NCBI GenBank assembly: GCA_004292855.1
Contig: RDXN01000083.1
Span: 1 to 41,740, forward strand
Length of the DNA stretch: 41,740 nt
DNA from: Cytophagales bacterium
Lineage (GTDB): Bacteria > Bacteroidota > Bacteroidia > Cytophagales > Spirosomataceae
Direction of reading: 5' to 3'
Shown here: in pieces, positions 4,486-22,950 of the stretch
How the letters are laid out: every line of letters begins with the position of its first letter
How positions within the stretch are numbered: the first letter of the stretch is position 1
Translations under genes and position numbers: made by a program
Notes under the pieces: generated by a model
What the model saw: the letters and a program-made list of their open reading frames with translations, nothing else
Databases searched by the model: none
What the model was told of the DNA's origin: nothing

Positions 4486-4489
4486 AGGG

Positions 4490-5789: not shown

Positions 5790-5941
5790 ACAGACCCGGC
5801 AAGGTGTTTGTTGGCTCGCAAATTATAAAATGACGAACGTGACATAATTGGAAATTTCCGTCAAAATTCTGTCGTCATTATCCTGACCCCCCATCCTGTC
5901 GATAGTTACCACGAATGAGTGTGTATCAACCCATAAAGAAC

Positions 5942-6736
5942 ATGCCTCGTCAGTATACAAGTATCAGTCTATTTTTTCTATTGATATTGTTTTTATCATC
6001 CGTTTGCCTGGCGCAACGGCCTAACTCCCGCAACCGGGTTTCGTTTGGGCAGTCGGTAGGTATCACGGGCGATTCGTCGTTTCTGGACGTCGACCAGGAC
6101 ATTGCCGTGCAGTTGATGCCCTTTGATGAGCTTGTACGGATGGCCGTAGCCAACTCACCAATTCTAAAATATCAGAATGAGATCGTTAGCTCGCTCAACT
6201 CGGAGCGCGATCTGGCTAAAGTACAGGTATTACAGAATGCGTCGGGCTTTGCGAGTTATTCGGGCGGCAACCAAAGCTTAGTCACGACGGGTATAAACCA
6301 ACGGGGCGATCAACTGGGACAAATTGCCAATGGCTACCGGCTTGGCGTCGATTTACGGGTGTCGCTCTACGATTTGTTTGGCCGGAAACATCAAATAAAG
6401 CGAGCCGACGCCGTGTATCGGTCGTCGGTGGCGCAGAAAGATGTATACGCGTTGCAGGTCCGGCGGGAGATGATTACCGTGTATCAGGATATGATTACGG
6501 CGCAGCAGGTACTCAAACTTCGGCTCACCGATGAGCAGTCGGCCATGACCGCCCTTCGGATCGCCGAAAACGAAAATCAGAAGGGGCAGAGCACGAGTGA
6601 GGCTTTTTCAATGGCTACCAATCGGTACGTTGAGGCCAAAGTGATTACCGAAACGGTGAAGGGCGATTTTATTAAGCAAGTGCATCAGTTTGAGGCACTC
6701 GTCGGGGTTCCTATCCAACGCATGAAACGCTTCTGA
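5942..6736 (+). CDS. Short TolC-like outer membrane protein
   Basis: 264 residues from the ATG at 5942; another ATG at 5915 would add nine residues before the signal peptide. Residues 1-25 form a signal peptide ending SVCLAQ. The rest is mostly helical with alternating hydrophobic and Gln/Glu/Arg residues, and contains DELVRMAVANSPILKYQNE and LYDLFGRKHQIKRADAVY, patterns of the outer membrane efflux protein (TolC) family. At about half the usual TolC length it holds one helical-hairpin repeat rather than two. The next gene, GumC/Wzz-like, starts one base after its stop, so the pair is co-translated. I infer an export role for the polysaccharide or the megasynthase product; no Wza-type porin is present in the window. 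Confidence 0.8.
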   Translation: MPRQYTSISLFFLLILFLSSVCLAQRPNSRNRVSFGQSVGITGDSSFLDVDQDIAVQLMPFDELVRMAVANSPILKYQNEIVSSLNSERDLAKVQVLQNASGFASYSGGNQSLVTTGINQRGDQLGQIANGYRLGVDLRVSLYDLFGRKHQIKRADAVYRSSVAQKDVYALQVRREMITVYQDMITAQQVLKLRLTDEQSAMTALRIAENENQKGQSTSEAFSMATNRYVEAKVITETVKGDFIKQVHQFEALVGVPIQRMKRF

Positions 6737-6737
6737 C

Positions 6738-8921
6738 ATGAATATTGAGGTTTTTTTACGGGTTCTTAGAAAACACCTGATCTGGTTTTTGGTGTTGCCC
6801 CTGCTCACGGCGGGTATGGCCTATTATATGACCCGCGACGAAGTGAAAGTATACACCTCGTCGGCATCGCTGTACACGGGTCTCTCGTCGGGGTACTCGA
6901 TCACGTCGGATTCCCGGCCCTCGTTCGGCGATCACTCAACGAGCGCGTTCGACAACATGCTCACTACGTTGCAGTCGAAAGAGACCTTGTTGGGCGTGGG
7001 GGGGCGTTTGTTGGCCGATCACCTGCAACTGGAACAGCCCGATTCGCTTATTCTGGGCCAGGCAGGGTTTGATCAACTTCAGGCAGACATTCCGGCTACC
7101 TTCCGAATTATGTTGCCCACCTGGGGAGGTAACAATGCCATGCGGCAAGCCATTGACAGTCTCGCCAAACTCCCCACCGACAACCCGGTGAAGCACTTGT
7201 TGCTCCAGTCGGATTCGCCGTACTCCATTTTTTCGATTGGCGAGAAGTTGCAAGCTGTGCCCCGCAAGAACTCCAACGACGTGATGTTGCTCGAATACGA
7301 GGCCAACGACCCCGGCGTGGCCCAACGGACGCTCTCGCATGCCATCGCGATGCTGAATGAGCGGTATTCGACCCTCAAGACCGCCGAAACCAACTCGGTG
7401 GTGGGTTATTACGAAAGTCAATTAGAAAAGGCGAAGCAGGCTCTCGATGGGGCTGAAGCTAATTTACGGGCATTCAGCGTAGAACACCGCGTGCTCGACT
7501 ACGACGAGGAAGCCCGTAACGTGGCGGCTTCGCGCGAGGCCTTGGTTCGGGAATACAATGAGGAACTGATGCGCCGGAACGCAGCCAAAGCGGCAATGGA
7601 TGCCCTCAAAGGCCGTATGCGGCAACGCGGTACTATTCGCAAAGCCAACAACGACCTGGGCGAACAACAAAAGCAACTGGCCGAAGCCGAAAAGCAGCTC
7701 GCCAACGCCCGTGCCTACAACCAACCCCGCAGCGAGATTACCCGCCTTCAGGCCAAGGTAAAGCAGGCCGAAGAGGAACTTCGCAGCAGTGCCCAACGCT
7801 ACGACGCGGCTACCTTGACTGACGAGTCGGCCCCGCAACAGGCGTTGAGCCAAAACCTGCTTGAGAAAACAATTGAATACGAAGAGTCGGCGGCCAAGCT
7901 CGAAACGTATCAGAAACGGATTGCCGAACTCGATGGAAAAACAACTGAATTTGGACCATTGGGGTCGCAACTCCGCTCGTTGAAGCGCGATTTGAGCGTG
8001 GCCGAAAAAGAGTATTTCGACGTACTCCAACACGTCGATCAGTCACGGATGAAGAAGCAGGACGTGGCCGCTGGCAAGCTCGAACCGCTCGACGCCCCCG
8101 ATTATCCACTCGTGCCCAAAGCCTCGAAGCGGTTGCAGTTGCTCATTATCGGCTTTGGGGTGGGTATTTTTCTGGCCTTGCTCCTCACAGCCCTGCGGTT
8201 CTGGATGGACAAGAGTCTTAACTCGCCTGAGCAGGCCGAAACGCAGATTGGCGTACCGATGGCGGCTATTTTCCCAACGGTCAAAAAGCCCAACGTGTAC
8301 TCTCGCGTGACGCGCACCGCCCGAACTATGTTTGAGCAGTTGTTCAATACCATCAACATTGAGGTAGCTCAAACAGAAGGAAAGCCGTACCCGCCAATCG
8401 TAACGGTTTTCAGTATCAGAACCAAACAAGGTAAAACCTGGGTGGCTGAGGGTCTAACCCGACTTTATAATGATGCCGATCAGCGTGTGGCGTTTTGCTA
8501 CCCGCGCACGTCGCCCAAAGATCGCCGGACGTTCAAAAATGGAGTGTCGTATTTTCCGTACACGGTCCGGCCCGATTTCATGAACGTGACGAGCCTGGAA
8601 TACCTGATCGACCATGACCATGAGTTCGAGGCTAGCCAGTTCGACTGGATTGTGCTGGAACTACCCGCATTGATCAACAGCCAAATTCCGGTGTACATGA
8701 TGAAGGAGAGCGTGCTGTCGGTGCTGGTTGTCGATGCCAACAGCGCGTGGGGCCGGGCCGAGCGGCAACTCCTGAGTTTGTACACCCGCGTGACGAATCA
8801 ACCCATGTTAGCGGTATTGAACCGTGTGGGGGGCGATCAGTTGCAGATTCCGACCCGCGACGACGCCAAACAGGAGCCTGTTTACCGGGATCAAACCACC
8901 GTGCCGACCACGGAAAACTAG
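6738..8921 (+). CDS. GumC/Wzz-like exopolysaccharide chain-length and export protein with degenerate kinase domain
   Basis: 727 residues. TM1 is near 14-33, followed by a Wzz-type periplasmic region and a long coiled coil (about 215-420, many KQLAEAEKQL-like heptads), TM2 near 465-490 (LLIIGFGVGIFLALLL), then a cytoplasmic BY-kinase-like domain. Family members control chain length and link polymerase to the export machinery. In the kinase-like domain the P-loop is reduced to TKQGKTW, the Walker A' region reads VAFCYPRTS with no Asp, the Walker B position reads IVLELPA with Glu in place of Asp, and there is no C-terminal tyrosine cluster. I infer a pseudokinase that keeps a structural role. 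It lies directly between the TolC-like gene and the megasynthase genes. Confidence 0.88.
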   Translation: MNIEVFLRVLRKHLIWFLVLPLLTAGMAYYMTRDEVKVYTSSASLYTGLSSGYSITSDSRPSFGDHSTSAFDNMLTTLQSKETLLGVGGRLLADHLQLEQPDSLILGQAGFDQLQADIPATFRIMLPTWGGNNAMRQAIDSLAKLPTDNPVKHLLLQSDSPYSIFSIGEKLQAVPRKNSNDVMLLEYEANDPGVAQRTLSHAIAMLNERYSTLKTAETNSVVGYYESQLEKAKQALDGAEANLRAFSVEHRVLDYDEEARNVAASREALVREYNEELMRRNAAKAAMDALKGRMRQRGTIRKANNDLGEQQKQLAEAEKQLANARAYNQPRSEITRLQAKVKQAEEELRSSAQRYDAATLTDESAPQQALSQNLLEKTIEYEESAAKLETYQKRIAELDGKTTEFGPLGSQLRSLKRDLSVAEKEYFDVLQHVDQSRMKKQDVAAGKLEPLDAPDYPLVPKASKRLQLLIIGFGVGIFLALLLTALRFWMDKSLNSPEQAETQIGVPMAAIFPTVKKPNVYSRVTRTARTMFEQLFNTINIEVAQTEGKPYPPIVTVFSIRTKQGKTWVAEGLTRLYNDADQRVAFCYPRTSPKDRRTFKNGVSYFPYTVRPDFMNVTSLEYLIDHDHEFEASQFDWIVLELPALINSQIPVYMMKESVLSVLVVDANSAWGRAERQLLSLYTRVTNQPMLAVLNRVGGDQLQIPTRDDAKQEPVYRDQTTVPTTEN

Positions 8922-8947
8922 TCGGACGAGTACTAACCCATACACGA

Positions 8948-11900
8948 ATGCGTACCTCTACCGGAATTCCTCAGCCGGGCATTAACGCGCCTATGTCGTT
9001 GATGGTCCATGAATTAGTCGAACAAACGGCGCGGCAGTATCCCGACCAACCGGCGGTGGTGTTTGGCCCTGACTCGCTCACCTACGCCGAGCTTGACCAA
9101 CAGGCCGACCGGCTCGCCCGACTAATTTTACAGCAAGCTCCCAAGACCAGCGCGGTTGGCGTGAGTACGACGCGCAGCATCGGTATGGTGGTGTCGGTGC
9201 TGGCGATTCTGAAAGCGGGCAAGGCGTACCTCCCACTCGACCCGGCTTACCCGGTGTCCAGACTCGAACAAATGCGCGACGATGCCGGACTGACCGTTTG
9301 CCTGGCTCCGGCCACCGACCACGCCCTGTTCTCGAACCTGGGTTTTTCCGTGATCGACCCCACTACTACCGACGACGCGCCCGAACCGCCAACCGTTCAG
9401 CAGTCCGACACGGCCTGTGTGCTGTACACCTCCGGCTCAACCGGCACGCCAAAGGGCGTTTTGTTGCCGCACGTGGGCATGGCAAACCTGATTCACTGGC
9501 AGATGGAACACTCAGCGGCACAACCCGGTCGGCGGACGATTCAGTTTTGTCATTTGAGCTTCGACGGGTCGTTTCCCGAACTATTTGTGCCGCTGGCAAC
9601 AGGCGGTACGGTCTATCTGATGACCGAACCGCAGCGGATTGAGGCCGGTCAGTTGCTCCATTTTTTAGTAGACAACGGCATCCATCGGGCGTTTTTGCCC
9701 TTTGTGGCCCTGCAATATCTGGCCGAAGCCGCTCAAGCTGAAGGGCTTTATCCCGAAACCCTCGTCGAACTGATAACGGGGGGTGAGGCTCTCAAAATCA
9801 CCGAACCCATTGCCCGGTTCTTCACGGCTCTGCCCGATTGCCCGCTGATGAACGCCTACGGGCCAACCGAAGCGAGCGTCTGGATTGCCGAAAACAAGCT
9901 CACCGGCGACCCTGCCAACTGGCCCACGTTGCCCCCGATTGGTCGGCCCATCGGCAACACCGATCTGTTGGTGCTCGATGAAAGGGGGAAACTGGCCCCA
10001 GTTGGCGAGGTGGGCGAACTCTGCATCGCGGGCACATGTCTCGCACACGGTTACCTAAACCGCTCCGAACTCACCGACGAGAAATTCATCGACTGGACAA
10101 ACGAAGCGGGCGAGTCGGTCCGCATTTACCGCACGGGCGATTTGGGCCGGTACGGGGCCGATAACATCATCGAGTTTGCAGGCCGTAAAGACGATCAGGT
10201 GAAAATTCGGGGAAACCGGGTCGAGTTGGGCGAGATTGAGGTGGCTCTGACCCGGCAGGCGGGGGTGCGGACGGCGGTGGTGGTGGCGCGGGAAGACGTG
10301 CCCGGCCTGAAACGCCTGATTGCCTACGTGGTAGCTGAGTCGCCCGCGCTCGACCTGAACGCGGTGCGCCAATCGCTCATTGCCGACTTGCCCGACTTCA
10401 TGTGGCCCGCTCAATACGTTTTGCTGGACGAAATTCCGCAGACCATAGCGGGTAAGATCGACAAGAAACGGCTACCCACCCCGCTCGTGCAACGACCCGA
10501 CTTGAGCGTGTTGTACCGCAAGCCCGTTACGACACTCGAAACAAACATCGCTACCATCTGGGCCGATCTGCTCCAACTCGACCGGGTGGGCCTCGACGAT
10601 AATTTCTTTGAACTGGGCGGAAACTCCCTGCTGGCCCAAAAAACCGTAGCCGAACTCAAAACCCGCCACGGCCTCGCGCTCCCCATCACCAAACTGTATC
10701 AGTTTCCAACGGTCAAACAGTTAGTAGCGATCAGTGAACAGCGATCAGTGAAAAGTGAACAGCAAATAGTTAGTGATGAGCAGTCACAATTCACCGCTCG
10801 CAATCCGAAATCAGATATTGCCGTCATCGCCCTATCAGGCCGGTTTCCGGGGGCTGAAACGATTGACGAGCTTTGGCAGGTGCTGACCGAAGGCCGCGAA
10901 ACCATCCGGTTTATGGAGGCCAACGAGCTACACGCGAGCGTTCCGGCGCACCGGCGCAATGACCCCGCCTACGTACGGGCGCGGGGCCTGCTCAACAACC
11001 CCGATCAGTTCGATCCGCTGTTTTTTGGCCTCACACCCGCCCTCGCCGAACTCATGGACCCTCAACAGCGGGTGTTTCTGGAAATCGCCTGGGAAGCCCT
11101 CGAACAGTCGGGGCATTTGCCCCAATATTTCGGCGGCTCAGTGGGGGTATTTGCGGGTTGCGGCCCCAATACGTATTACTTCAACAACGTGCAGCACCAC
11201 CCCGACCTGATAGAGCAGGTAGGCGCGGTGAACGTGACCACCGTTAACGAGAAAGATTACATTGCCTCGCGCACGGCCTATCAGTTGAACCTCAAAGGTC
11301 CGGCCGTGAGTGTGTATTCGGCTTGTTCGACGTCGCTGTTGGCCGTAGCGCAGGCCGTACAGAGCTTACGGAGCGGTCAATGCGACGTGGCTTTGGCGGG
11401 TGGCGCGGCCATTTCGGTTCCGTTCTACAGCGGGCATTTGTACCAGGAAGGGGCCATGCTGAACCACGACGGGCATACCCGCACGTTCCAGGCTGGTTCG
11501 ACCGGGACCGTGTTTAGCGACGGGGCCGGGGTAGTACTCCTAAAACCCCTTGAAGCGGCTCAACGCGATGGCGACACCATTTTTGCGGTGATTAAAGGGG
11601 TGGGGGTGAACAACGACGGTGCCGACAAAGGCAGTTTCACAGCCCCCAGTGCCGACGGACAGGCCGGAGCCATCCGCATGGCTATCGCCGACGCCCAAAT
11701 CGACCCGGCTACCATCAGTTACGTGGAAGCCCACGGCACTGCAACCCCGCTCGGTGATCCCATCGAAATTGAGGGGTTAACGATGGCTTTCGGTGAGGTG
11801 CCACAGAATGGATTTTGCCGGATTGGCTCCATCAAGAGCAACATGGGCCACCTGACGGCTGCGGCAGGAGTCGCGGGCCTCATCAAAACTGTATTGGCCC

Positions 11901-14900
11901 TGCATCACCGGCAACTTCCGCCTACCATCAACTACAATCAGCCAAACCCCGCCATCGACTTCGCCAACAGCCCGTTTTTGGTAAACGATACCCTGACGGA
12001 TTGGGCCACAATAGACGATCAGCCCCGTAGAGCGGGAGTGAGTTCGCTGGGCGTTGGCGGCACCAACGTCCATGTGGTGTTGGAGGAGGGAAGGAGTGGG
12101 CAGTTAGCAGTTGGCAGTCGGCAGTTGGAAGCAGTCGACAATGAACAACTGACGTGCCCTGTGTTGCTAACGTGGTCCGCCCGCACCGATGCCAGCCGCG
12201 AAGGCTACGCTCAGAAACTGGCCGGTACGTTGATCCGGAACAACTTACTGGATATTAACGATGTAGCTTATACTCTGCAAACGACCCGCGCCGATTTTCG
12301 GCAACGTCGGTTTGTAGTGGCCGGGTCGAACGAAGAGTTGGTCGATGCCCTGCGGGCTGATGCGCCCAAGAATATGACCAATGCCCTCAAAGCCACGCCC
12401 GACGAACTGGTGTTTTTGTTCCCAGGACAAGGTGCGCAGTTCATGGGCATGGGTCGCGAACTCTACGCGAGTGAGGCCGTGTTTCGGCAAGCCGTAGATA
12501 CCTGTGCCGACTTACTCGTCAATTATCTCGACACCGACATCCGGGCCGTTCTCTACCCGGACCCCGCCGACGGTAAAGCCGAAGGTCGGCTCAATAACAC
12601 CCGCTACACTCAACCAGCCCTGTTCGTGACCGAGTACGCCCTGGCGAAGCTCTGGATGGGTTGGGGCATTGAACCGTCGGTGCTGTGCGGGCACAGTATT
12701 GGTGAGTTTGTGGCGGCTCATCTGGCGGGGGTGTTTACCCTGCCCGATGCCCTCCGGCTCATTGCCACACGTGGGCGGCTCGTGAGCGAGCAACCCCGTG
12801 GGCGCATGTTGTCGGTGCGGATGGATGCCCAATCCGTTGCCCAACTCCTGCCGAATACGCTCTCGATGGCGGCCATCAACAGCAAAAGCCTGTGCGTGGT
12901 GGCTGGCCCCGACGAATACCTGGCCGATTTTACGCGCCTGCTCGACAGCCGCGAGATTCCAAACCGGTTGCTCGTCACGAGTCACGCGTTCCACTCGGCC
13001 ATGATGGACCCTGTGGTCGATGTGTTTGAGCGGGAAGTAAAACAGGTCGCACTGAATCGCCCGCAACGAGCCATCGTTTCGACCGTAACGGGTAAACTTC
13101 TCACCGATAGGCAAGCCACTGACCCGCGCTACTGGGCGACGCACCTGCGCGAAACGGTCCGGTTTGCCGATGCCGCCGATACACTGCTGGCAATGGGTAA
13201 CCCGCTCCTGCTTGAAGTAGGGCCGGGGCAGGCTCTGACAACATTGGTTCGTCAGCAGGCCACGCCCAAACCCGTGACGGTATTACCGGGGTTGTCGTCT
13301 CAACTCGATACCGAGTCAGCCACGCGGGCCATGCTCACCACGTTAGGGCAATTGTGGCTACACGGTGCCACGCCCAACTGGAAAGCTTTGTATGCCAACC
13401 GCGAACCGACCCGCGTTTTATTACCTACCTATGTCTTTGATCGAAAAACGTATTGGGTCGAAGCGGTGCCAGCCGCTCCTGCTTCCGTTGCCCCTGCCGA
13501 ACGGGTCGTTGCCCAATTTGAACAAGCTTCTTCTGTCCAACTACTACAATCACCCGCACCCATGAGACAACCGATCCTCGAACAACGTATTCTGGAACTG
13601 CTTGAAAAAGCGTCGGGCATCGACACGGCAGACATTACGCCCGACATGCCGTTTTTGGAAATCGGCCTCGATTCACTGTTGCTGACCCAGTTGGCGCAGA
13701 CATTTAAAAAGGAGTTCAATACGCCCATCACGTTCCGGCAACTCACGGGCGAGTTTGGTTCCGTGGCCCTGGTAGCCCAGCACCTCGACGCAACGCTGCC
13801 CGCCGACCGCTACCAACCCGCCCCAGTAGCCGCGCCAACGCAACAGACGGTCGCGCCTGTTGCCCAACAACCGCAATCCTACGCCCCAAACCGCATCGAC
13901 GGATCACCTGCGCCCCAGACTTCTGGCTTTGCGCCAACTGGCAATGACTCGGCATTAGGTCTGATTTCGCAGCAATTGCAAATTCTGGCCAAGCAAGTGG
14001 CTCTGTTGCAAGGCGGGACCGGCAGTGATCAGTTGCGGTCCGACGGTTCGGCAATCGGCAGTTTACAATCGGCAATCGGCAATGAACGGTCGGTGTCTAG
14101 CGTCCAGCGTCCAGAATCCAACGTCCAGCGTCCAGAATCCAATCCCCAATCCGATATTACCGCTGAAGAGGCTGCTGAACTCAAGAAACCGTTTGGGGCG
14201 ACGGCCCGAATCGAGCGGAAGGCATCTGGTTTGACGCCCGTTCAACAAGCGTTTATCGACAATCTCACGGCCACCTACAACGCAAAAACGGCGGGTAGCA
14301 AGGCTTACACCCAACACCACCGGCCCCACATGGCCGATCCGCGTGTGGTGACGGGGTTCCGGCCCACAACCAAAGAACTGGTTTACCCGCTCGTAGTAAG
14401 CAAGTCGAAGGGAAGCCGTTTGTGGGACATTGACGGCAACGAATATATCGACGTACTCAATGGTTTCGGCTCTACCATGTTCGGCTACCAGCCCGATTTC
14501 ATGAAGGAGGCCATGCACGCCCAAATTGAGGATGGGTACGAGATTGGCCCCCAACACGAATTGGCGGGTGAGGTAAGCGAACTTATTCGTGAGTTTACCG
14601 GGCACGACCGCGTGGCCTTGTGCAGCACCGGTTCGGAGGCTGTATTGGGTTGTATGCGCGTGGCCCGCACCATCACGGGCCGTTCATTGATCGTGGCCTT
14701 TTCCGGGTCCTACCACGGCATTGTCGATGAAGTATTGGTGCGCGGGACGAAGAAACTGAAGTCGTTTCCGGCGGCATCGGGTATCATGCCCGAATCGGTG
14801 CAGAACATGCTAATTCTGGACTACGGCACCGACGAAAGCCTCCAAATCATTCGCGACAGGGCCGACGAATTAGCGGCTGTGTTGGTAGAAACCGTGCAGA

Positions 14901-15733
14901 GCCGCCGACCAGAGTTTGTGCCGGTTGAGTTCCTGCGCGAGTTGCGGACCATCACCGAACAATCAGGAACGGCCCTGATTTTCGATGAGGTTATTACGGG
15001 CTTCCGTATGCACCCCGGTGGCGCACAGGCCCTGTTTGGGATTCAGGCCGATTTGGCGTCCTACGGCAAGGTGGTGGGTGGTGGCTTGCCCATCGGCGTC
15101 ATTGCGGGCAAAAAAGAATTCATGGATGCCCTTGATGGCGGTAGCTGGGAATACGGCGACGGTTCTGTACCCGAAGTGGGCGTTACGTACTTTGCCGGGA
15201 CGTTTGTTCGGCACCCGCTCGCCCTTGCAGCCGCCAAAGCCGCGCTTCTGCACATGCGCGAGATGGGGCCGGGCCTTCAACAAAGCCTGACCGACAAAAC
15301 AAACTGGCTCGCCGACCGTATGAACGCGCTCATCCGGCGGCACGGATTACCCATGTCTGTTGTGCATTTTGGCTCGCTTTGGAAAGTGAAATGGTCGGAG
15401 GATGTGCCTTATGGCGAGTTGCTGTTCACGATGATGCGCGAGAAGGGCGTTCATATTTGGGACGGTTTCCCCTGCTTCATGACCGAGGCCCACACCGATG
15501 CCGACCTGCAAACGATCCTGCGTTGTTTCTCCGAAAGCGTCGATGCGTTACTAAAATCCACCTTCTTACGCGCGAACACATCAAATAATGGCGTAACTTC
15601 GATAAATCCTGTACCTTTTGCAGTTGCACCTGTGCCGGGTGCCCGCTTAGGTCGTGATTTACAGGGTAATCCAGCCTGGTTCGTACCCAGCCCCGACGCT
15701 CCAGGGCAGTACGTTCAGGTTGTTGCCCCATAA
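8948..15733 (+). CDS. Hybrid NRPS-PKS megasynthase: A-PCP-KS-AT-ACP-aminotransferase
   Basis: 2261 residues from the ATG at 8948; the open frame extends upstream into the previous gene, but the match to A domains begins here. Domain order: adenylation 1-510 (YTSGSTGTPKGV, AYGPTE, GKIDKKRL); peptidyl carrier with Ser560 (GGNSL); ketosynthase about 620-1045 with Cys793 (ACSTSL), EAHGTA and SNMGHL; acyltransferase about 1155-1460 with Ser1250 (GHSIGE) and HAFH, the malonyl-CoA signature; acyl carrier with Ser1576 (GLDSL); class III PLP aminotransferase about 1770-2205 with Lys2041 (SYGKVVGGG). It loads an acid or amino acid, extends it by two carbons and converts the beta-keto to a beta-amino group, as known for mycosubtilin, iturin and microcystin synthases. 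There is no ketoreductase. The tail GARLGRDLQGNPAWF resembles the linker between aminotransferase and C domains. Product not recognised. Confidence 0.95.
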   Translation: MRTSTGIPQPGINAPMSLMVHELVEQTARQYPDQPAVVFGPDSLTYAELDQQADRLARLILQQAPKTSAVGVSTTRSIGMVVSVLAILKAGKAYLPLDPAYPVSRLEQMRDDAGLTVCLAPATDHALFSNLGFSVIDPTTTDDAPEPPTVQQSDTACVLYTSGSTGTPKGVLLPHVGMANLIHWQMEHSAAQPGRRTIQFCHLSFDGSFPELFVPLATGGTVYLMTEPQRIEAGQLLHFLVDNGIHRAFLPFVALQYLAEAAQAEGLYPETLVELITGGEALKITEPIARFFTALPDCPLMNAYGPTEASVWIAENKLTGDPANWPTLPPIGRPIGNTDLLVLDERGKLAPVGEVGELCIAGTCLAHGYLNRSELTDEKFIDWTNEAGESVRIYRTGDLGRYGADNIIEFAGRKDDQVKIRGNRVELGEIEVALTRQAGVRTAVVVAREDVPGLKRLIAYVVAESPALDLNAVRQSLIADLPDFMWPAQYVLLDEIPQTIAGKIDKKRLPTPLVQRPDLSVLYRKPVTTLETNIATIWADLLQLDRVGLDDNFFELGGNSLLAQKTVAELKTRHGLALPITKLYQFPTVKQLVAISEQRSVKSEQQIVSDEQSQFTARNPKSDIAVIALSGRFPGAETIDELWQVLTEGRETIRFMEANELHASVPAHRRNDPAYVRARGLLNNPDQFDPLFFGLTPALAELMDPQQRVFLEIAWEALEQSGHLPQYFGGSVGVFAGCGPNTYYFNNVQHHPDLIEQVGAVNVTTVNEKDYIASRTAYQLNLKGPAVSVYSACSTSLLAVAQAVQSLRSGQCDVALAGGAAISVPFYSGHLYQEGAMLNHDGHTRTFQAGSTGTVFSDGAGVVLLKPLEAAQRDGDTIFAVIKGVGVNNDGADKGSFTAPSADGQAGAIRMAIADAQIDPATISYVEAHGTATPLGDPIEIEGLTMAFGEVPQNGFCRIGSIKSNMGHLTAAAGVAGLIKTVLALHHRQLPPTINYNQPNPAIDFANSPFLVNDTLTDWATIDDQPRRAGVSSLGVGGTNVHVVLEEGRSGQLAVGSRQLEAVDNEQLTCPVLLTWSARTDASREGYAQKLAGTLIRNNLLDINDVAYTLQTTRADFRQRRFVVAGSNEELVDALRADAPKNMTNALKATPDELVFLFPGQGAQFMGMGRELYASEAVFRQAVDTCADLLVNYLDTDIRAVLYPDPADGKAEGRLNNTRYTQPALFVTEYALAKLWMGWGIEPSVLCGHSIGEFVAAHLAGVFTLPDALRLIATRGRLVSEQPRGRMLSVRMDAQSVAQLLPNTLSMAAINSKSLCVVAGPDEYLADFTRLLDSREIPNRLLVTSHAFHSAMMDPVVDVFEREVKQVALNRPQRAIVSTVTGKLLTDRQATDPRYWATHLRETVRFADAADTLLAMGNPLLLEVGPGQALTTLVRQQATPKPVTVLPGLSSQLDTESATRAMLTTLGQLWLHGATPNWKALYANREPTRVLLPTYVFDRKTYWVEAVPAAPASVAPAERVVAQFEQASSVQLLQSPAPMRQPILEQRILELLEKASGIDTADITPDMPFLEIGLDSLLLTQLAQTFKKEFNTPITFRQLTGEFGSVALVAQHLDATLPADRYQPAPVAAPTQQTVAPVAQQPQSYAPNRIDGSPAPQTSGFAPTGNDSALGLISQQLQILAKQVALLQGGTGSDQLRSDGSAIGSLQSAIGNERSVSSVQRPESNVQRPESNPQSDITAEEAAELKKPFGATARIERKASGLTPVQQAFIDNLTATYNAKTAGSKAYTQHHRPHMADPRVVTGFRPTTKELVYPLVVSKSKGSRLWDIDGNEYIDVLNGFGSTMFGYQPDFMKEAMHAQIEDGYEIGPQHELAGEVSELIREFTGHDRVALCSTGSEAVLGCMRVARTITGRSLIVAFSGSYHGIVDEVLVRGTKKLKSFPAASGIMPESVQNMLILDYGTDESLQIIRDRADELAAVLVETVQSRRPEFVPVEFLRELRTITEQSGTALIFDEVITGFRMHPGGAQALFGIQADLASYGKVVGGGLPIGVIAGKKEFMDALDGGSWEYGDGSVPEVGVTYFAGTFVRHPLALAAAKAALLHMREMGPGLQQSLTDKTNWLADRMNALIRRHGLPMSVVHFGSLWKVKWSEDVPYGELLFTMMREKGVHIWDGFPCFMTEAHTDADLQTILRCFSESVDALLKSTFLRANTSNNGVTSINPVPFAVAPVPGARLGRDLQGNPAWFVPSPDAPGQYVQVVAP
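10718..10794 (+). repeat. Heptanucleotide tandem repeats in the PCP-KS linker
   Basis: About eleven 7-base units in register: CAGTTAG, TAGCGAT, CAGTGAA, CAGCGAT, CAGTGAA, AAGTGAA, CAGCAAA, TAGTTAG, TGATGAG, CAGTCAC, AATTCAC. A 13-base stretch (AGCGATCAGTGAA) occurs twice, 14 bases apart. It encodes a Ser/Glu/Gln-rich flexible linker between the first carrier domain and the ketosynthase. Confidence 0.75.
12099..12128 (+). repeat. Heptanucleotide tandem repeats in the KS-AT linker
   Basis: Four in-register units, CAGTTAG, CAGTTGG, CAGTCGG and CAGTTGG, preceded by GG. They encode part of the segment after the ketosynthase (GQLAVGSRQLE). The 13-mer GGCAGTTAGCAGT at 12099-12111 is identical to 36969-36981 in the nuoM-nuoN gap. 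Confidence 0.8.
14048..14156 (+). repeat. Two families of heptanucleotide repeats in the ACP-aminotransferase linker
   Basis: 14048-14096 holds seven units of the type TCGGCAA. 14101-14156 holds eight units of the type CGTCCAG/AATCCAA, including an exact 21-base tandem duplication (14101-14121 and 14122-14142) that encodes VQRPESN twice. Three heptads make 21 bases, which preserves the reading frame. Confidence 0.85.
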
Positions 15734-15743
15734 GCCGCCATGT

Positions 15744-18700
15744 ATGACTAGTACAACTCATATACAGTACACCCCCGTCGATTTCGACCCGTTCGCTGGC
15801 CCATCCATTGAGCAACTCGTGCCCATAACCGAGCCTCAGACCGAAATCTGGCTGGCTTGTCAGTTTGGGGGCGACGATGCCAGCCGGGCTTACAATGAGT
15901 CGGTGTCGTTGCGGCTGCGCGGGTCGCTCAACCGGACGGCTCTGGAACGGGCTGCCAACGCGCTCGTCAGTCGGCACGAGGCATTACGGTCGGCGTTTAG
16001 TGGAGATGGGAAAACAGTCCTGATTTTTGAGCCAACGCCCGTTCAACTGACTTTTGCCGACTTGTCAGGAGAACCTGAAGTAGAGCAGCGAGCGGTTGTT
16101 AAGGCATTTCTGAGCGATCAGGCAAGGGTTGTGTTCGATTTGCAAAACGGCCCGCTGTATCAGATGGCTCTGCATCGACTGTCTGAGATCGAGCATCTGT
16201 TTACCCTTACGGCCCATCATATTGTGTGCGATGGCTGGTCGGCGGGGGTGGCTTTGCAGGATTTGGGCACGTTCTATACGGCCTTCGCGCACGGGAAAAT
16301 CCCTCTGTTACCACCCGCTGAGTCAGTTGGAGCGTTTGCCGTTGAAGAGCAGACGTTTATCCAATCGCCCGATTATCAAGCTGTTGAGCAGTTCTGGCTG
16401 AACCAATACGCCGATTCAGTTCCTACCGTTGATCTGCCCACGGACTTCCCGCGCCCACCCCGGCGCACGTACGCAAGCCACCGACAGGACTACCGGCTTG
16501 ATGACAACCTGACCGCGGCCCTCCGCAAACTCGGCCAACGCGCCGGATGCAGCCTTGTTTCAACACTACTCATCAGCTTTGAGGTTTGGCTCCACCGGCA
16601 GACGGGCCAAACTGATCTGATTGTGGGCTTACCCGCAGCCGGGCAGTCGGCAACGGGGCACGGGCGGCTCATGGGCCATTGCGTGAACCTGCTGCCCATC
16701 CGCTCGAAACCCCAACCCGACCAATCGTTCAGCGATTATTTGACTAGCCGCCGGGATGGTATTCTGGATGCGTTCGAGTATGGGCGGCTCACGTTCGGGA
16801 GTTTGCTCAAGAAACTCGCCATCCCCCGCGACTCGGCCCGTGTACCGTTGGTGCCGGTTATGTTCAACGTCGATTTTGGTCTGGACGAGGGTATTTTGTT
16901 TCATGACCTGGCAGTTGAGCTAATCAGCAACCCGCGTCAGTTCGAGGCTGTGGATCTGTTTGTGAACGCGGGTGGTACGCAACAGTCGCTCGTGATCGAG
17001 TGGTCGTACAACACCCAACTGTTCCGACCCGAAACTATCGACGGGTTCATGGCGCAGTTTGTGGCCCTCCTCCGCGAGGTTACGGCCAACCCAAACAGCT
17101 TACTCGGTTCACAAACGAAGACCGTTGCTGCTGATACGGCCAATGAAAGCCGGGTCGATGGCCCCATTGCCGGGTATCCCGGCGCACCCCTGCACGATTT
17201 GCTGGCTCAAACGGCCACTCGATACGCCCAAAAAACGGCTTTGGAGTTCAACGGGCAACAGTTGACCTATGCCGACTTGCACGATCAGGCAAACCTGCTC
17301 GCGCATCAATTGCGTGAGCGGGGCATTGGACCGGATACCATCGTGGGCGTAATGGTCGACCGGTCGGTCGAAATGGTCGTGTCGATTTTGGGCGTCTTGA
17401 AAGCCGGAGCCGCGTACCTGCCCCTCGATCCCGCGTTCCCGCACGACCGGCTGACCTTTATGCTTGCCGACGCCGGAGCCACGCTTGTACTGACGACTGG
17501 AAAATACGCCGGTCGCCTAAACCATTCGATACCCGAACTGATTGTTGATAAGGCACTTGCAAACGAAAATGTTAAACGGTCCGAAGCTCTTGTAGCTCAA
17601 CTTTCGCCCGATGCCACAGCTTATGTGCTCTACACGTCGGGGTCAACGGGCAAACCAAAGGGCGTCCCCATCAGCCACCGGAATCTGGTCAACCTGCTGT
17701 ATGGCATGATTGCCTGGCCGGGTATGACCGACAAAGACAAATTCCTGTCAGTTACGACTATTTCGTTCGATATTTCGAACGTCGAGCTGTTTTTGCCCCT
17801 GCTCGTGGGCGGTACGCTCGTGTTGGCCGACAGCGAAACGGCCAAAGACGGTCGCGCTCTGCTCGCGGCCCTGCAACAACCGGGTATCAGCGTGTTTCAG
17901 GCCACACCCGCCACACACCGGATGTTGCTGGCAAGCGGTTGGAATGACCCCTTGCCGCTCAAGCTTATTAGCGGGGGTGAACCCATGACGCCCGATTTGG
18001 CCAAAAAACTTACGGCCCGCACTCAATCGGTCTGGAACATCTACGGCCCCACCGAAACCACGATTTATTCGATTGGCAAGCAAATTTTTTCTGCAGACAC
18101 GGTCATCACCATTGGCAAGCCTGTTCAGAACACGCAGGTTTATTTGCTCGACGAACAGCAGCGACCCGTTGCGCCGGGAGCCGTGGGCGAAATTTGCATC
18201 GGGGGCGATGGCGTGGCCCGTGGCTACCTGAACCGCCCCGAACTCACCGCCGAAAAGTTCATCCAAAACCCGTTTGGGCCGGGAACCCTCTACCGCACCG
18301 GCGACCTTGGTCAATTGACGCCCGACGGCGAGATTTTGTGCCTGGGCCGTATGGACCAACAGGTGAAAATCAGAGGCTTCCGCATTGAATTAGGGGAGGT
18401 TGAAAACACGCTGGGCACCGTTGCCGACATTCGGGAGGTGGTTGTACTGGCCCGCGAAGACCGCCCCGGACTTGGGACCGTAGGCGGACAACGATTGGTG
18501 GCCTACGTGGTGCCCACAAACGATCCGCCTGCGCAACCGACTACGGCCCCACGTGAACGCGTGATGGCCTGGCGGCAACAAGCCCGCCAAACCCTGCCCG
18601 ATTACATGGTCCCCGCCGATTTTGTACTTGTGTCCTCGTTCGTGCTAACTCCGAGTGGCAAAATTGATCGCAAGGCCCTCGCCCAACTACGTGTAGGAAC

Positions 18701-19781
18701 GGCGGTCACAACGTCGCTTAACGGCAACGGAATCGGGAAGGAAGAAAAACTGTTACGTACGATCTGGTCGGAGGTGCTGGGTGTACACGACATTGGCCTG
18801 AACGACAGTTTTTTCGACCTCGGTGGGCACTCAATGCTGGCCTTACAAGCCATGACCCGGCTCGAAAAAGAAACCGACCGACGCTTGCCCCTTGCTACCC
18901 TGTTCGAGTACCCGACCATCGAAAAACTGGCCGACCTGCTCCGACAGGACAAACCTCAAACACCCACGCCCTCGCTCGTGACCATCAAGGGGTATGGGTC
19001 AAAAATGCCCATTTATATCGTGCATGGCGGGGGACTAAATCTGCTTACATTCAGGGGTTTGGTAGAGCACATGGACGCCGAACAGCCTATTTACGGCTTT
19101 CAGGCACGGGGCCTTGATGGCATTGAGGAGCCGCTCGACAACATGGACGCCATTGCCGCCGATTATCTGGAAGAACTGCTTCAGCAAAATCCCAATGGCC
19201 CTTATGCCCTCGCCGGTTACTCATTTGGGGGGTATATCGCCCTTGAAATGGCCCGCCAACTGAAGGCGATGGGCAAACCTGTAAAGCTGTTGGGGATGTT
19301 CGATACCAATGCCGAGGAGTCGGTAGAGGGCCGTCCGTTTCTGGACCGGATGGCCTGGAAATTGGGTCGCCAGTTGCCAAAAATGGCTTGGATTGGGCGT
19401 TCATTGATCGAGCAACCGTTGCCAACGCTCAAGTATCAGGGCGAATTTGTGGAGCGAAAAGTGAAGGGTGTACTGAGAGCGTTTGGTCTTGCTAATGAGA
19501 CCACTTATGAGGAGATTGGCGACGAAAATCTGATCCGCATCATCGAAAAGCACGAAATCGCCTTTCAGAACTACCGCATGAAGCCCTACGACGGGGCAAT
19601 TGACGTGTTCAAGGCTCGTAAGCGACTCTATTTTGTGGAGGATCGTGAGTTTTTGGGCTGGAAAAAATACGCACTTCGGGGGGTTCGCGTTCACCACGTT
19701 CCCGGCGACCATAAAGAAATGCTCTTGCCTCCCAATGACCGAGAATTTGCCCAGATTTTGCAGGCGGCTCTCGACAGGTAA
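15744..19781 (+). CDS. Terminal NRPS module: C-A-PCP-TE
   Basis: 1345 residues from the ATG at 15744, ten bases after the first megasynthase; the open frame reaches back to 15654 inside that gene, but the family match starts at MTSTTHIQY. Condensation domain about 30-450 with HHIVCDG (His158, His159, Asp163); adenylation about 475-970 (YTSGSTGKPKGV, IYGPTETT, SGKIDRKAL); carrier with Ser1030 (GGHSM); thioesterase about 1080-1345 with Ser1160 (GYSFGG) and a late GDH for the catalytic His. It should condense the beta-amino intermediate from the first enzyme with one amino acid and release the product by hydrolysis or cyclisation. The C-domain start resembles C domains that follow aminotransferase domains. 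All visible catalytic residues are intact. No MbtH-like protein or phosphopantetheinyl transferase is present, so these must act from elsewhere. Confidence 0.95.
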   Translation: MTSTTHIQYTPVDFDPFAGPSIEQLVPITEPQTEIWLACQFGGDDASRAYNESVSLRLRGSLNRTALERAANALVSRHEALRSAFSGDGKTVLIFEPTPVQLTFADLSGEPEVEQRAVVKAFLSDQARVVFDLQNGPLYQMALHRLSEIEHLFTLTAHHIVCDGWSAGVALQDLGTFYTAFAHGKIPLLPPAESVGAFAVEEQTFIQSPDYQAVEQFWLNQYADSVPTVDLPTDFPRPPRRTYASHRQDYRLDDNLTAALRKLGQRAGCSLVSTLLISFEVWLHRQTGQTDLIVGLPAAGQSATGHGRLMGHCVNLLPIRSKPQPDQSFSDYLTSRRDGILDAFEYGRLTFGSLLKKLAIPRDSARVPLVPVMFNVDFGLDEGILFHDLAVELISNPRQFEAVDLFVNAGGTQQSLVIEWSYNTQLFRPETIDGFMAQFVALLREVTANPNSLLGSQTKTVAADTANESRVDGPIAGYPGAPLHDLLAQTATRYAQKTALEFNGQQLTYADLHDQANLLAHQLRERGIGPDTIVGVMVDRSVEMVVSILGVLKAGAAYLPLDPAFPHDRLTFMLADAGATLVLTTGKYAGRLNHSIPELIVDKALANENVKRSEALVAQLSPDATAYVLYTSGSTGKPKGVPISHRNLVNLLYGMIAWPGMTDKDKFLSVTTISFDISNVELFLPLLVGGTLVLADSETAKDGRALLAALQQPGISVFQATPATHRMLLASGWNDPLPLKLISGGEPMTPDLAKKLTARTQSVWNIYGPTETTIYSIGKQIFSADTVITIGKPVQNTQVYLLDEQQRPVAPGAVGEICIGGDGVARGYLNRPELTAEKFIQNPFGPGTLYRTGDLGQLTPDGEILCLGRMDQQVKIRGFRIELGEVENTLGTVADIREVVVLAREDRPGLGTVGGQRLVAYVVPTNDPPAQPTTAPRERVMAWRQQARQTLPDYMVPADFVLVSSFVLTPSGKIDRKALAQLRVGTAVTTSLNGNGIGKEEKLLRTIWSEVLGVHDIGLNDSFFDLGGHSMLALQAMTRLEKETDRRLPLATLFEYPTIEKLADLLRQDKPQTPTPSLVTIKGYGSKMPIYIVHGGGLNLLTFRGLVEHMDAEQPIYGFQARGLDGIEEPLDNMDAIAADYLEELLQQNPNGPYALAGYSFGGYIALEMARQLKAMGKPVKLLGMFDTNAEESVEGRPFLDRMAWKLGRQLPKMAWIGRSLIEQPLPTLKYQGEFVERKVKGVLRAFGLANETTYEEIGDENLIRIIEKHEIAFQNYRMKPYDGAIDVFKARKRLYFVEDREFLGWKKYALRGVRVHHVPGDHKEMLLPPNDREFAQILQAALDR

Positions 19782-19853
19782 AAAAGTTGTTTAGTTTTGG
19801 GGGAATTAGTGGATTGACTCATTATTAATTTGCTCTTAAAATTTAGTTCAGGG

Positions 19854-19887
19854 AGTCGGACGGTTACAAAACTGCCCGACTTTTTTT
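19854..19887 (+). terminator. Rho-independent terminator after the megasynthase genes
   Basis: The stem AGTCGG(A)CGGTT pairs with AACTG(C)CCGACT around an ACAA loop, with one G-U pair and one internal mismatch, followed directly by a run of seven T (19881-19887). It separates the TolC/GumC/megasynthase transcript from the downstream glycan operon, although some read-through is possible. Confidence 0.85.
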
Positions 19888-19911
19888 ATAAGTTTCGGCA
19901 ACCCATTTGTC

Positions 19912-21099
19912 GTGACTAACCCACTTAATCGCTTCGTAATCTGGCTGTTTGCCTGGAGCTTCGTACTTTGTGCGGCTTCGCGCTGGCGCATAGCGGGCGT
20001 TGGCATAGGTGAAGTGAGCTTGAGTTTAGCGAGTGGGCTAACCTTATTACGAACCCGGTTTGCCCTACAATCTCCACCCGAATTAAGGATTTGGTTGCAG
20101 TTCGCAGGCCTTTCGGGCATAGCCCTGCTGACAGGAACACTGTGGGCATTGGCAGAGGGCATTTGGGAGCCAACCGGGTTCACCCATGACGCCCTCGCGC
20201 TATCCTTCTGCTTCGTCGCGCTCGACTTACTACTTCCGTTTCTGGCGGAGGACCCCCAACGACACCATTTCGTGAAGCATTGGCTGTGGGCCAGCCTGAC
20301 GCTGGTAGCGGCCAATCTGCTGCTTTACGAGTTTTATGGGGAACTGCTGGGCGAAGGTAAAATCTGGATCAATCGGTTCAGCGGTTTGTCGGCCAACCCC
20401 AACCAATTAGCCCTATATGTTTGTTCAATGCCCTTCTGGCTCTTGGCCCGGCCGCATTTGCTCCCCCGCTGGGTAACGGTTTTGGGGGTGATTGGCAGCC
20501 TGTATCTCGGCTGGCTGACGGGTTCCGACGCGCTTATGCTGGGTTGGTTTGCTGGCTTTGGCTGGCTCGCGGCACACGAGATTATGAACCGCCAATGGCG
20601 AACGAACCCAACTCAAAATACGTACGCCAAAACGCTGCTGATGAGCCTGTATAGTCTGCTACTCGTTAGCGGATTAGTCTTATTTTGGGCCTCTGCTACA
20701 GACATTTACGCCATTGGTGGACAAGGCGACCTGAGGGTGCTACGCTGGCAGAACGGTTTGCAAATTCTTACTCATTCTCCTCTGTTTGGCTTGGGTCCGG
20801 GCGCATTTTCGGGGGATCGTGGTCCCTTCGAGGGGCAGGAAGCGCATAATCTGTACATCGACTGGATGGCGTCGGGCGGGATATTGGCCGGGCTGGCTCT
20901 GATCTGGTTTCAACGTCGGGTGTGGTTCTCGTTGCGCAACCGTCATGCTCCTGCACTCACTGCCGGGTTCTTGTGTTTGCTGGTGTTTGGTCTGTTTCAC
21001 TACATGGCCCGGCATCCGGTGTTCTGGCTTGTTCACCTGCTTTGTTTGACTCATACCGTTCAGTCGGCTCCACAGGCGATTGGCAATTTTCCTAAATAA
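19912..21099 (+). CDS. O-antigen ligase/polymerase-like membrane protein
   Basis: 395 residues starting with GTG at 19912. About ten or more transmembrane segments cover almost the whole length. A large loop near residues 285-320 carries GLGPGAFSGDRGPFEGQEAHN, with the conserved Arg and His of the O-antigen ligase/Wzy_C family, followed by a helix. Members either polymerise repeat units or transfer glycan (or other groups) to an acceptor at the outer face of the inner membrane. It lies just after the terminator and nine bases before the amidotransferase gene, heading the second operon. Whether it acts as a Wzy polymerase or a ligase cannot be decided here. Confidence 0.8.
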   Translation: MTNPLNRFVIWLFAWSFVLCAASRWRIAGVGIGEVSLSLASGLTLLRTRFALQSPPELRIWLQFAGLSGIALLTGTLWALAEGIWEPTGFTHDALALSFCFVALDLLLPFLAEDPQRHHFVKHWLWASLTLVAANLLLYEFYGELLGEGKIWINRFSGLSANPNQLALYVCSMPFWLLARPHLLPRWVTVLGVIGSLYLGWLTGSDALMLGWFAGFGWLAAHEIMNRQWRTNPTQNTYAKTLLMSLYSLLLVSGLVLFWASATDIYAIGGQGDLRVLRWQNGLQILTHSPLFGLGPGAFSGDRGPFEGQEAHNLYIDWMASGGILAGLALIWFQRRVWFSLRNRHAPALTAGFLCLLVFGLFHYMARHPVFWLVHLLCLTHTVQSAPQAIGNFPK

Positions 21100-21108
21100 A
21101 TTCAACCC

Positions 21109-22950
21109 ATGTGTGGCATAGTTGGCTCCCTCAACCGCCCCTTCGACGACCCCGGCCTCCTGTTGCGCGACTTGCACCACCGGGGACCGGACGGGCATGG
21201 GAGCCTGACAATGGGGCCGCTTACGGTGCTACATACGCGCCTGGCTATTCAGGATCAGGGCGCGGGTGGTCATCAACCCATGCAACGGGGTCGGTATGTG
21301 CTGGTGTTCAACGGCGAAATCTACAACCACCGCGACCTCCGCCAATGTTACAACCTCACCTGCCAATCGGGTAGCGATACCGAAACATTGTTGGCCATGT
21401 GGGAAAAGTTTGGGCCTGCCGCGCTGCCCCAACTCGACGGTATGTTTGCCTTCGCTCTGTTCGATTCCGTTGAGCAACGGCTTTGGCTCGCCCGCGACCG
21501 ATTTGGGCAAAAACCGCTGTATGTGTGGCAAACGGGCACTCAACTTGTGTTTTGTTCGGAGTTGCGTACGCTTCAACGTCACCTGGCCCTACAACCAAAT
21601 CGTGCTGCCCTCAGCCGGTTTTGTCAGGCCGGTTATCTCATGTCGAGCGAAACGCCTTACCGACACGTTCGCTTGGTGCAGCCCGGTCATCTGGAACAAA
21701 TCGACGCACGAACGATGGCTTGTACGGAGACCGATTGGCGAAAATCGTCTCTCCCTCAACGTACTCCAATCGGACCACAATCGGCAACCCTAAACCGTCT
21801 GGAGCAAACGCTTACCCAAACCGTTCGGCAACATCTCGACACCACCGACCGCGAGGTGGGCGTGTTGCTCAGTGGAGGTGTTGACAGCGGATTGATAACA
21901 GCGTTGGCGGCCCAGTATCAGCCCGGTATCCGCACCTTCACGCTCTCGTTTGGCGGGGGTTTGTACGACGAAGCCCCCCTAGCTCGGCTGGTTGCCAATC
22001 GCTACCGGACCCGCCACACGGAGGTAGTTGTTCCCACGACAAATCTCGCCGATGAGGTACTCAATCTGCTACCCCGTTACGGCGAGCCGTTCATGGACAG
22101 TTCGGCCCTGCCGAGTAGTTGGGTGGCACGAGCCGCCCGCCAGCACCTCCCCGTTGTACTGACCGGTGACGGAGCCGACGAACTGTTTGGCGGTTACCGA
22201 CGCTACGTTCCGGCAAGGTTGGGCCTATACGACCTACCCGCGCCCGTTGCCCGCCTGCTGAGCAAACTAAGCACAGCTTTACCGCACCCTAAACAAAAAC
22301 AGTCGCGTTTCAGTCAGGCTTTGCGGCTGCTAGCCAGTACGCAACAAACTGGCCCAAGTCGCTATTTGTCAACCACAACCGACGTTATGACGGGGTACGA
22401 ATCGGCCCTGATTGATCCGGCTCCGCCCAATCAACTGACATCACTGCTTGCCGAAACCGACTCACTGAGCAACTTGCAACAACTACAGGCTCTGGATCGG
22501 GCTTTGCTGCTCCCCGGCGATCTGCTGAAGAAAATGGACATTGCCACAATGGCCCACGGTTTGGAGGCCCGTAACCCCTTTCTGAGTCAGCCTGTTGCAG
22601 ACTTCGCTTTGTCGCTGCCTGATAATCAGAAGATAGGCTGGCAAAACGGGGCTATTCGAACTAAAGTTTTACTTCGTCAACTGGCCCACCGCTATCTGCC
22701 TCCAGTTCTTGTGAACAAACCCAAACGCGGGTTTGAAGTGCCGCTCAGGCAGTGGCTCGACGGACCATTACGGGCTCTGACACACGATTTTCTGACCAAT
22801 CCGGGTCTGATCGACACGTTGATCGAACCCTCGTTTATCCGGCAACTGCTGGAACAACCGCGCCGATTTGCACCCGAAAAACGGGCCAAACTGCTCTGGA
22901 TGATGCTGTCCGTCGAAATCTGGCACCGCAGCCTACACCAACATGACTAA
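21109..22950 (+). CDS. asnB: Asparagine synthetase (glutamine-hydrolysing)-type amidotransferase
   Basis: 613 residues. Cys2 (MCGIVGSL) is the glutaminase nucleophile. The N-terminal Ntn-hydrolase domain (1-190) contains RGPDGHG and FNGEIYNH. The C-terminal ATP-pyrophosphatase domain holds the PP-loop SGGVDS at 255-260 and GDGADELFGGYRR near 365. The family uses glutamine ammonia and ATP to amidate a carboxylate, classically aspartate to asparagine. Homologues in polysaccharide clusters (WbpS/WbmE type) are linked to amidation of uronic acids, and others in NRPS clusters serve precursor supply. Here it sits between the ligase-like gene and a GT4 gene, which it overlaps by eight bases. I infer amidation of a sugar carboxylate or of the nonribosomal product rather than bulk asparagine synthesis. 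Confidence 0.9.
   Translation: MCGIVGSLNRPFDDPGLLLRDLHHRGPDGHGSLTMGPLTVLHTRLAIQDQGAGGHQPMQRGRYVLVFNGEIYNHRDLRQCYNLTCQSGSDTETLLAMWEKFGPAALPQLDGMFAFALFDSVEQRLWLARDRFGQKPLYVWQTGTQLVFCSELRTLQRHLALQPNRAALSRFCQAGYLMSSETPYRHVRLVQPGHLEQIDARTMACTETDWRKSSLPQRTPIGPQSATLNRLEQTLTQTVRQHLDTTDREVGVLLSGGVDSGLITALAAQYQPGIRTFTLSFGGGLYDEAPLARLVANRYRTRHTEVVVPTTNLADEVLNLLPRYGEPFMDSSALPSSWVARAARQHLPVVLTGDGADELFGGYRRYVPARLGLYDLPAPVARLLSKLSTALPHPKQKQSRFSQALRLLASTQQTGPSRYLSTTTDVMTGYESALIDPAPPNQLTSLLAETDSLSNLQQLQALDRALLLPGDLLKKMDIATMAHGLEARNPFLSQPVADFALSLPDNQKIGWQNGAIRTKVLLRQLAHRYLPPVLVNKPKRGFEVPLRQWLDGPLRALTHDFLTNPGLIDTLIEPSFIRQLLEQPRRFAPEKRAKLLWMMLSVEIWHRSLHQHD

Follow-up and report, generated by a model that had tools for sequence, protein, structure and literature searches.

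We analyzed a 41,740-base stretch of DNA from a Cytophagales bacterium (contig RDXN01000083.1 of assembly GCA_004292855.1), hereafter called the window, which is one entire contig (C38) of the source genome. Two adjoining genes in the window, designated NRPS1 and NRPS2, encode a hybrid nonribosomal peptide synthetase (NRPS)–polyketide synthase (PKS) line that lies inside a run of genes (4614–27662) whose sequence reads as an exopolysaccharide (EPS) operon. We tentatively propose, at somewhat less than even chances, that the line belongs to this polysaccharide operon and that its product acts together with the EPS, most likely as an acyl or peptidyl substituent; a free metabolite is nearly as likely as an EPS-associated small X-(β-amino)-Gly-like peptide. 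The polysaccharide link is supported by genomics in the family that includes Spirosoma and in separate proteobacterial settings, but not by the other Bacteroidota tested. A preliminary description of this DNA had reported the line and omitted the EPS genes surrounding it.

Domain organization of NRPS1 and NRPS2

NRPS1 (8948–15733, + strand, 2261 amino acids) gave Pfam matches in the order AMP-binding, PP-binding (two stretches in the protein), ketoacyl-synt, Acyl_transf_1, and Aminotran_3, and NRPS2 (15744–19781, + strand) matched Condensation, AMP-binding, PP-binding, and Thioesterase. These matches bear out the order proposed in the preliminary description: adenylation, peptidyl carrier, ketosynthase, acyltransferase, acyl carrier, and aminotransferase domains (A-PCP-KS-AT-ACP-AMT) in the first protein, and condensation, adenylation, peptidyl carrier, and thioesterase domains (C-A-PCP-TE) in the second. 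In NRPS1, the first adenylation domain (A1) spanned 8993–10483, the KS domain 10811–11935, the AT domain 12410–13345, and the class-III AMT 14384–15457; in NRPS2, the C domain spanned 15810–17111, the core of the second adenylation domain (A2) 17205–18230, and the TE domain 19008–19727. The E-values ranged from 3.9e-48 to 1.3e-91 for A, KS, AT, AMT, and C, and were 2.9e-25 for TE and 2.5e-28 and 6.3e-17 for PP-binding. NRPS2 was scanned as the frame read from GTG 15654; its preferred start was ATG 15744, 10 bases past the NRPS1 stop, and with this start all catalytic positions quoted earlier fit. Ser560 (PCP), Cys793 (KS, in an ACSTS motif), Ser1250 (AT), Ser1576 (ACP), and Lys2041 (AMT) were present in NRPS1, as were His158/His159 (C), Ser1030 (PCP), and Ser1160 (TE) in NRPS2, numbered from ATG 15744. 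A single protein thus contained KS, AT, ACP, and class-III AMT domains with their catalytic residues, which places the line among hybrid NRPS-PKSs with a β-aminotransferase. The best match of the AMT segment in the PDB was subunit A of mycosubtilin synthase (6kfm; 423 residues, E-value 2.7e-117), a clear relative, in agreement with the β-amino-acid-forming type assigned to it before.

The first A domain of NRPS1 was of the amino-acid-adenylation type (TIGR01733 above cut-off) and kept Asp235. From knowledge of these enzyme families, A1 would load an α-amino acid X, which would begin with a free amine because no condensation domain precedes A1. KS, AT, and ACP would add malonate, the HAFH motif of the AT being presumably malonyl-type, to give a β-ketoacyl thioester. 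Because the Pfam scan of NRPS1 and NRPS2 detected no reductive domain (KR, DH, or ER family), the β-keto group would reach the AMT, which would convert the ketone to an amine and, since the A-PCP unit loads an amino acid, would yield a 3,4-diamino acid. C-A2-PCP would then add a glycine-like residue, and TE would release X-(β-amino)-Gly or its lactam. By domain logic, this chemistry is fairly secure as far as the β-amino acyl-glycine-like product, within a scheme in which substrates, product, release, attachment, and role are all predicted.

The A1 code was D-G-P-(A/F)-I-G-A-V-W; among the A-domain codes, residue 278 was read differently in two extractions and residue 331 often fell in a gap. 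Taken as D-G-P-x-I-G-A-V-W, the A1 code had its like only in genome G003 among the loci read, and was unlike the proline-like code of about half of the relatives. The A2 code, D-I-V-Q-I-G-I-I-Y, belonged to the glycine-like group. When A2 was compared with solved structures, linear gramicidin synthase A ranked first, followed by 8xjz and 5u89, the last of which is presumably DhbF, a glycine module. Code positions follow GrsA numbering, and the codes are given their usual meanings (Pro, Gly, Val, Ser, Thr, and Asn/Asp).

The EPS operon around the line

The 12 genes between 4614 and 27662 all lie on the + strand; adjacent genes are separated by no more than 130 bases, and several overlap. Upstream of NRPS1 were a membrane glycosyltransferase of the GT2 family (4614–5789; Glyco_tranf_2_3, 3.3e-25), found in the same place in relatives, a short TolC-like outer-membrane protein of 273 amino acids with a single OEP stretch (5915–6736; OEP, 6.1e-17), and a Wzc/Wzz-like polysaccharide chain-length protein (6738–8921), which matched TIGR03007 (XrtA system chain length determinant) at 4.1e-17, below cut-off. 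Downstream of NRPS2 followed a Wzy/O-antigen-ligase-like membrane protein (19912–21099; Wzy_C, 5.1e-07, 30 bits against a cut-off of 31.7) and an asparagine-synthase-type amidotransferase (21109–22950; Asn_synthase, 1.5e-80; TIGR01536 above cut-off; TIGR03108, the XrtA amidotransferase, 345.5 bits, below cut-off). Next to these were a GT4 glycosyltransferase identified by Pfam (22943–24109), a WcaI-like GT4 glycosyltransferase identified by profile matches (24094–25335), an initiating sugar-phosphate transferase (25304–25924; Bac_transf, 6.7e-58), a NeuD/PglB-type sugar acetyltransferase (25873–26466; TIGR03570, 216.4 bits, above cut-off), and a DegT/LegC-like sugar aminotransferase (26484–27662; DegT_DnrJ_EryC1, 1.1e-82). 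In a promoter and terminator scan of 4000–21000, sites were no commoner than in shuffles (5 versus 7.5 and 15 versus 20.1).

The source genome was 96.5% complete, and its single Condensation match was the C domain of NRPS2. It had two matches to the phosphopantetheinyl transferase (PPTase) family. The PPTase on contig C25, HetI-like and below cut-off, adjoined a glycosyltransferase that shares 80% identity with one from the EPS block of the same-genus genome G002, and contig C10 gave matches to five further genes of that block; therefore, at least some of the usual neighbors are present in the genome but elsewhere. Outside the operon, the window encodes a spore photoproduct lyase family protein (33348–34487; SPL, 7.6e-88); to our knowledge, the source group is not known to form spores.

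Linkage with polysaccharide genes among relatives

NRPS1 matches were found in 50 of 390 genomes of the order at 1e-200 and in 38 of 395 genomes of the class at 1e-220, some matches being partial or split and not all full-length. A locus was counted as linked when the nearest initiating sugar transferase gene (PF02397) lay within 25 kb of NRPS1, and as not linked when the same contig had no PF02397 gene; the expected linkage was derived from the number of PF02397 genes and the genome size. In the window, this distance was 9.6 kb. Spirosoma lacussanchae (L011) was identical to G243 across the KS and AMT domains, and therefore Spirosoma belongs to the family of the source genome, f1, which agrees with the earlier assignment of this DNA to Bacteroidota. 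Across f1, 21 of 29 genomes were linked, against 1.18 expected, in six of eight genera (g1, 3/3; g3, 1/1; g4, 13/14; g8, 1/4; g17, 1/1; g18, 2/2; g31, 0/3; g33, 0/1). The 29 came from 30 genomes with a 1e-200 match, G003 being left out with its 6.8 kb contig. The f1 genomes are not independent, yet their arrangements differ. The OEP-Wzc pair stood directly upstream of NRPS1 in 14 of the 26 f1 loci read, 11 of them with a GT2 gene of the window type, and a TolC-like gene clustered beside a Wzc-like gene in 12 units. The strain Spirosoma lacussanchae CPCC 100624 (L011) shares with the window the gene order GT2-OEP-Wzc-NRPS1-NRPS2. The same-genus genomes G001 and G002 kept the EPS set corresponding to 19912–27662 beside the line, but on the opposite strand, and G005, G019, G020, and the second copy of G006 had other or rearranged EPS genes.

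Similar settings recurred in Proteobacteria. Polysaccharide genes lay beside the line in six of the seven plasmid loci read, which came from the 20 best plasmid matches: they were evident from the annotation at the Rhizobium CCGE531, Loktanella, Variovorax VAI-C, and Aliiroseovarius loci, and from tblastn (sugar transferase, flippase) at the Ensifer canadensis and Rhizobium jaguaris loci, where they were unannotated. On plasmid 3 of Variovorax sp. RA8 (L121:19602–44948), an NRPS-PKS pair had TIGR04325 methyltransferase and copper-binding genes nearby.

Relatives and domain variation

The preliminary description had singled out the two-module line split at the AMT/C junction. The line is complete here, but it is not peculiar to this genome: 36 NRPS1/NRPS2 pairs were assembled from Bacteroidota, and we rejected the idea of a unique line, relatives being common. 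An NRPS2-type protein clustered with NRPS1 in 36 of 45 units, and a PPTase was inside the fetched flanks in 21 of 45. NRPS2 was missing nearby in G010, G254, L018, L120, and the second copies of G001 and G002, and two second copies appeared fused, with open frames near 3975 amino acids. In a midpoint-rooted KS+AMT tree of 66 loci (L034, L037, and L038 excluded by hand, L030 and L118 without one domain, and no second copies), a single group held 61 rows, belonging to Bacteroidota, Proteobacteria, and a few other taxa, and was separated from three Paenibacillus rows and from single rows of Fischerella and Myxococcales (SH-aLRT 100); the window grouped with its two same-genus relatives (support 98). 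Hymenobacter caeli was identical to G286 of family f12 across the KS and AMT domains. The f30 genome G555 had an NRPS1/NRPS2 pair with a PPTase match (L220:10–10471) and the same codes as L019, a Flavobacteriales metagenome-assembled genome that carries the family. A lone NRPS1-like gene without NRPS2 was located beside a GNAT acetyltransferase gene on Spirosoma linguale plasmid pSLIN02 (L120:19734–26555) and in the second copy of G002 (L111/L112); the former sits among copper ATPase, multicopper oxidase, and DUF305 genes, and the latter has phage-type integrase, CobW, and outer-membrane efflux genes close by.

The mean pairwise identity over the 36 Bacteroidota pairs was 67.8% for KS and 69.7% for AMT, versus 48.0% for A1, 50.6% for C, 46.0% for A2, and 46.1% for TE (31 pairs). 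The window shared 71–77% identity with G001 and G002 in KS, AT, AMT, and TE, compared with 53–55% in A1 and C, 46–47% in A2, and 59% in the short ACP. With G003, the A1 domain was 75% identical and its code differed at one position. In a comparison of 39 of 40 NRPS1 copies (all but L127), two copies of similar KS+AMT identity differed more in A1 when their codes were unlike, A1 identity then being lower by 9 to 14 points than for like codes. Of the 36 pairs, 19 had a proline-like A1 code and 28 an A2 code that fitted the glycine-like pattern D[IL][ALV]Q. The A1 code of G001 was proline-like. A methyltransferase insert was present in two of the NRPS2 relatives scanned (G002 and the second copy of G006) and was not found by the Pfam scan in NRPS2 of the window. 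This combination of conserved KS and AMT with variable A domains would be well suited to a surface decoration that varies.

Role of the product

Under our proposal, the product would act with the EPS made by the flanking genes, perhaps joined to it as an acyl or peptidyl substituent. Several observations weigh against this. A TE normally yields a free acid or a ring, and the one here may do no more than free the product as an acid or lactam. The swapping of A domains occurs in ordinary NRPSs too, and the variation is therefore no proof of a surface role. No obvious candidate for joining the released product to sugar was found among ten scanned neighbors of the proteobacterial clusters: two had matches above cut-off (GINT1_N and Hydrolase_4), two had matches below it (a hydrolase and a porin), and six had no Pfam match, one of them being a TIGR04325 methyltransferase. 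Within f1, genus g31 was unlinked throughout, as were G254, G223, and G035 (on a short contig); no sugar transferase was seen in the flanks of G033 and G035; G010 and G262 lay at 31–32 kb, beyond the 25 kb limit; and of the eight second copies examined (G001, G002, G006, G240, G243, G311, G336, and G353) only that of G006 was within it. EPS genes were present at only three of seven proteobacterial genome loci (Ideonella, Xylophilus, and one unclassified; flanks up to 10 kb), and the Variovorax RA8 plasmid locus had copper genes instead of polysaccharide genes.

Linkage was also not enriched in the other Bacteroidota, with 1 of 23 tested genomes linked against 1.01 expected (f12, 0/6; f19, 0/4; rest of the class, 1/13); the 23 were drawn from 57 matching genomes outside f1, 10 of 24 from the order and 13 of 33 newly found in the class. 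In the linked exception, G516, the line was followed by a PPTase, a sugar transferase, Wzc, Wzy, and glycosyltransferases. A second NRPS2-like piece occurred there about 15 kb past the first, between glycosyltransferases within the EPS run (L204:15500–18000). Outside the PF02397 test, three Pedobacter loci had two GT2 genes at most about 7 kb from NRPS2.

The 22 of 23 genomes outside f1 with no initiating sugar transferase nearby, together with the TE ending, favor a plausible alternative: a free diffusible metabolite (a signal, antibiotic, or antifungal) whose genes travel with biofilm or EPS islands and which is not joined to the polysaccharide. A review (PMC7912845) states that Flavobacterium BGC298 encodes an antifungal or plant-protective metabolite; the family is carried by L019, which may or may not correspond to BGC298. 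Family scans detected no ABC, MFS, or RND exporter among the 12 operon genes, which argues against a free metabolite, as does the EPS linkage, which in f1 greatly exceeds the chance expectation and is also seen beside alpha- and betaproteobacterial relatives.

A metal-binding small molecule, such as a copper chelator, is improbable. Vicinal diamines bind copper well, a 3,4-diamino acid is predicted, and the S. linguale plasmid and Variovorax RA8 copies adjoin copper ATPase or oxidase genes, an association that also speaks against a polysaccharide role. However, these are two loci only, for which chance is likely on plasmids; the S. linguale copy consists of a divergent NRPS1 and lacks NRPS2; and no copper gene was annotated at the four proteobacterial EPS loci or seen among the identified genes of the window. 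It is highly improbable that the line supplies the polysaccharide with a special starter or anchor and not with a side group, as might be supposed from the EPS setting and the PKS-like rkp genes of the rhizobial K-antigen, since a conventional sugar-phosphate transferase is present to start the chain on the lipid carrier and one extension cannot make a lipid. A siderophore was rejected, as no iron-uptake family was among the identified window genes.

If the product is part of the polysaccharide, the line would represent a bacterial route for putting nonribosomal, polyketide-extended amino acids on slime, and would account for the occurrence of such lines in the EPS islands of rhizobia and roseobacters as well as of the Spirosoma family. 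An extension of this reading, that secreted polysaccharides are decorated across phyla with nonribosomal β-amino-acid peptides whose amino-acid-choosing domains are swapped by strain on a fixed PKS-AMT chassis, like O-antigen sugar genes, appears doubtful. If the product is a free molecule, the lines would make a widespread Bacteroidota metabolite family with readable variation in the first residue, for which our searches of open-licence papers yielded no product.

Comparison with known systems

The module type is already known. No recognized product had been claimed for the line, and our search of open-licence full-text papers likewise found none, nor any description of an EPS-embedded NRPS-PKS with an AMT. 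Flavobacterium BGC298, an NRPS-PKS reportedly tied to plant disease suppression, is by its description also a hybrid in Bacteroidota. According to a survey of Flavobacteriaceae and Weeksellaceae (PMC10734526), 41 PKS/NRPS hybrid families are specific to Flavobacterium, and 11.4% of all clusters have 60% or more of their genes in common with MIBiG entries.

Subunit A of the mycosubtilin and iturin synthases resembles NRPS1 in its AMT sequence and in the logic of converting a β-keto to a β-amino group. The mycosubtilin and iturin lines, however, start from a fatty acid, whereas the A-PCP unit of the window loads an amino acid. We rejected an iturin/mycosubtilin-type cluster on the basis of this amino-acid-adenylating first domain, with support from the KS+AMT tree, in which the window was apart from the three Paenibacillus rows, which may or may not be iturin-type. 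McyE-type modules of microcystin synthesis have the domain order KS-AT-ACP-AMT/C-A and belong to a long cyanobacterial pathway with tailoring domains. At the level of the general McyE layout, the window shares this order across the AMT/C junction; it differs in its two modules, bacteroidotal host, and EPS setting. The AsnB, Wzc, GT4, and A domains of the window gave weak matches, all below curated cut-offs, to families of the exosortase A (XrtA) system, whose EPS loci contain an acyl-CoA ligase, hydrolases, and an amidotransferase; an XrtA system proper would also have an exosortase and PEP-CTERM proteins. Two hydrolases beside the Variovorax VAI-C line matched TIGR03101 and TIGR03100, also below cut-off.

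Blast pieces from Proteobacteria had suggested release onto sugar by a terminal C domain, an idea rejected since in the Pfam scan these lines ended in C-PCP. A TE followed in Rhizobium, Loktanella, and Ideonella, and Variovorax VAI-C gave no TE match. The Rhizobium line differs from that of the window in being split as A-PCP / KS-AT-ACP-AMT-C-A-PCP / C-PCP-TE, and the Variovorax VAI-C line in ending C-A-PCP-C-PCP. The loci of Rhizobium CCGE531, Loktanella, Aliiroseovarius, and Variovorax VAI-C nevertheless have the same module logic with an AMT, a PPTase nearby, and polysaccharide genes around the line; further differences are an identity of 41–43% and the presence of TIGR04325 methyltransferases in three of the four.

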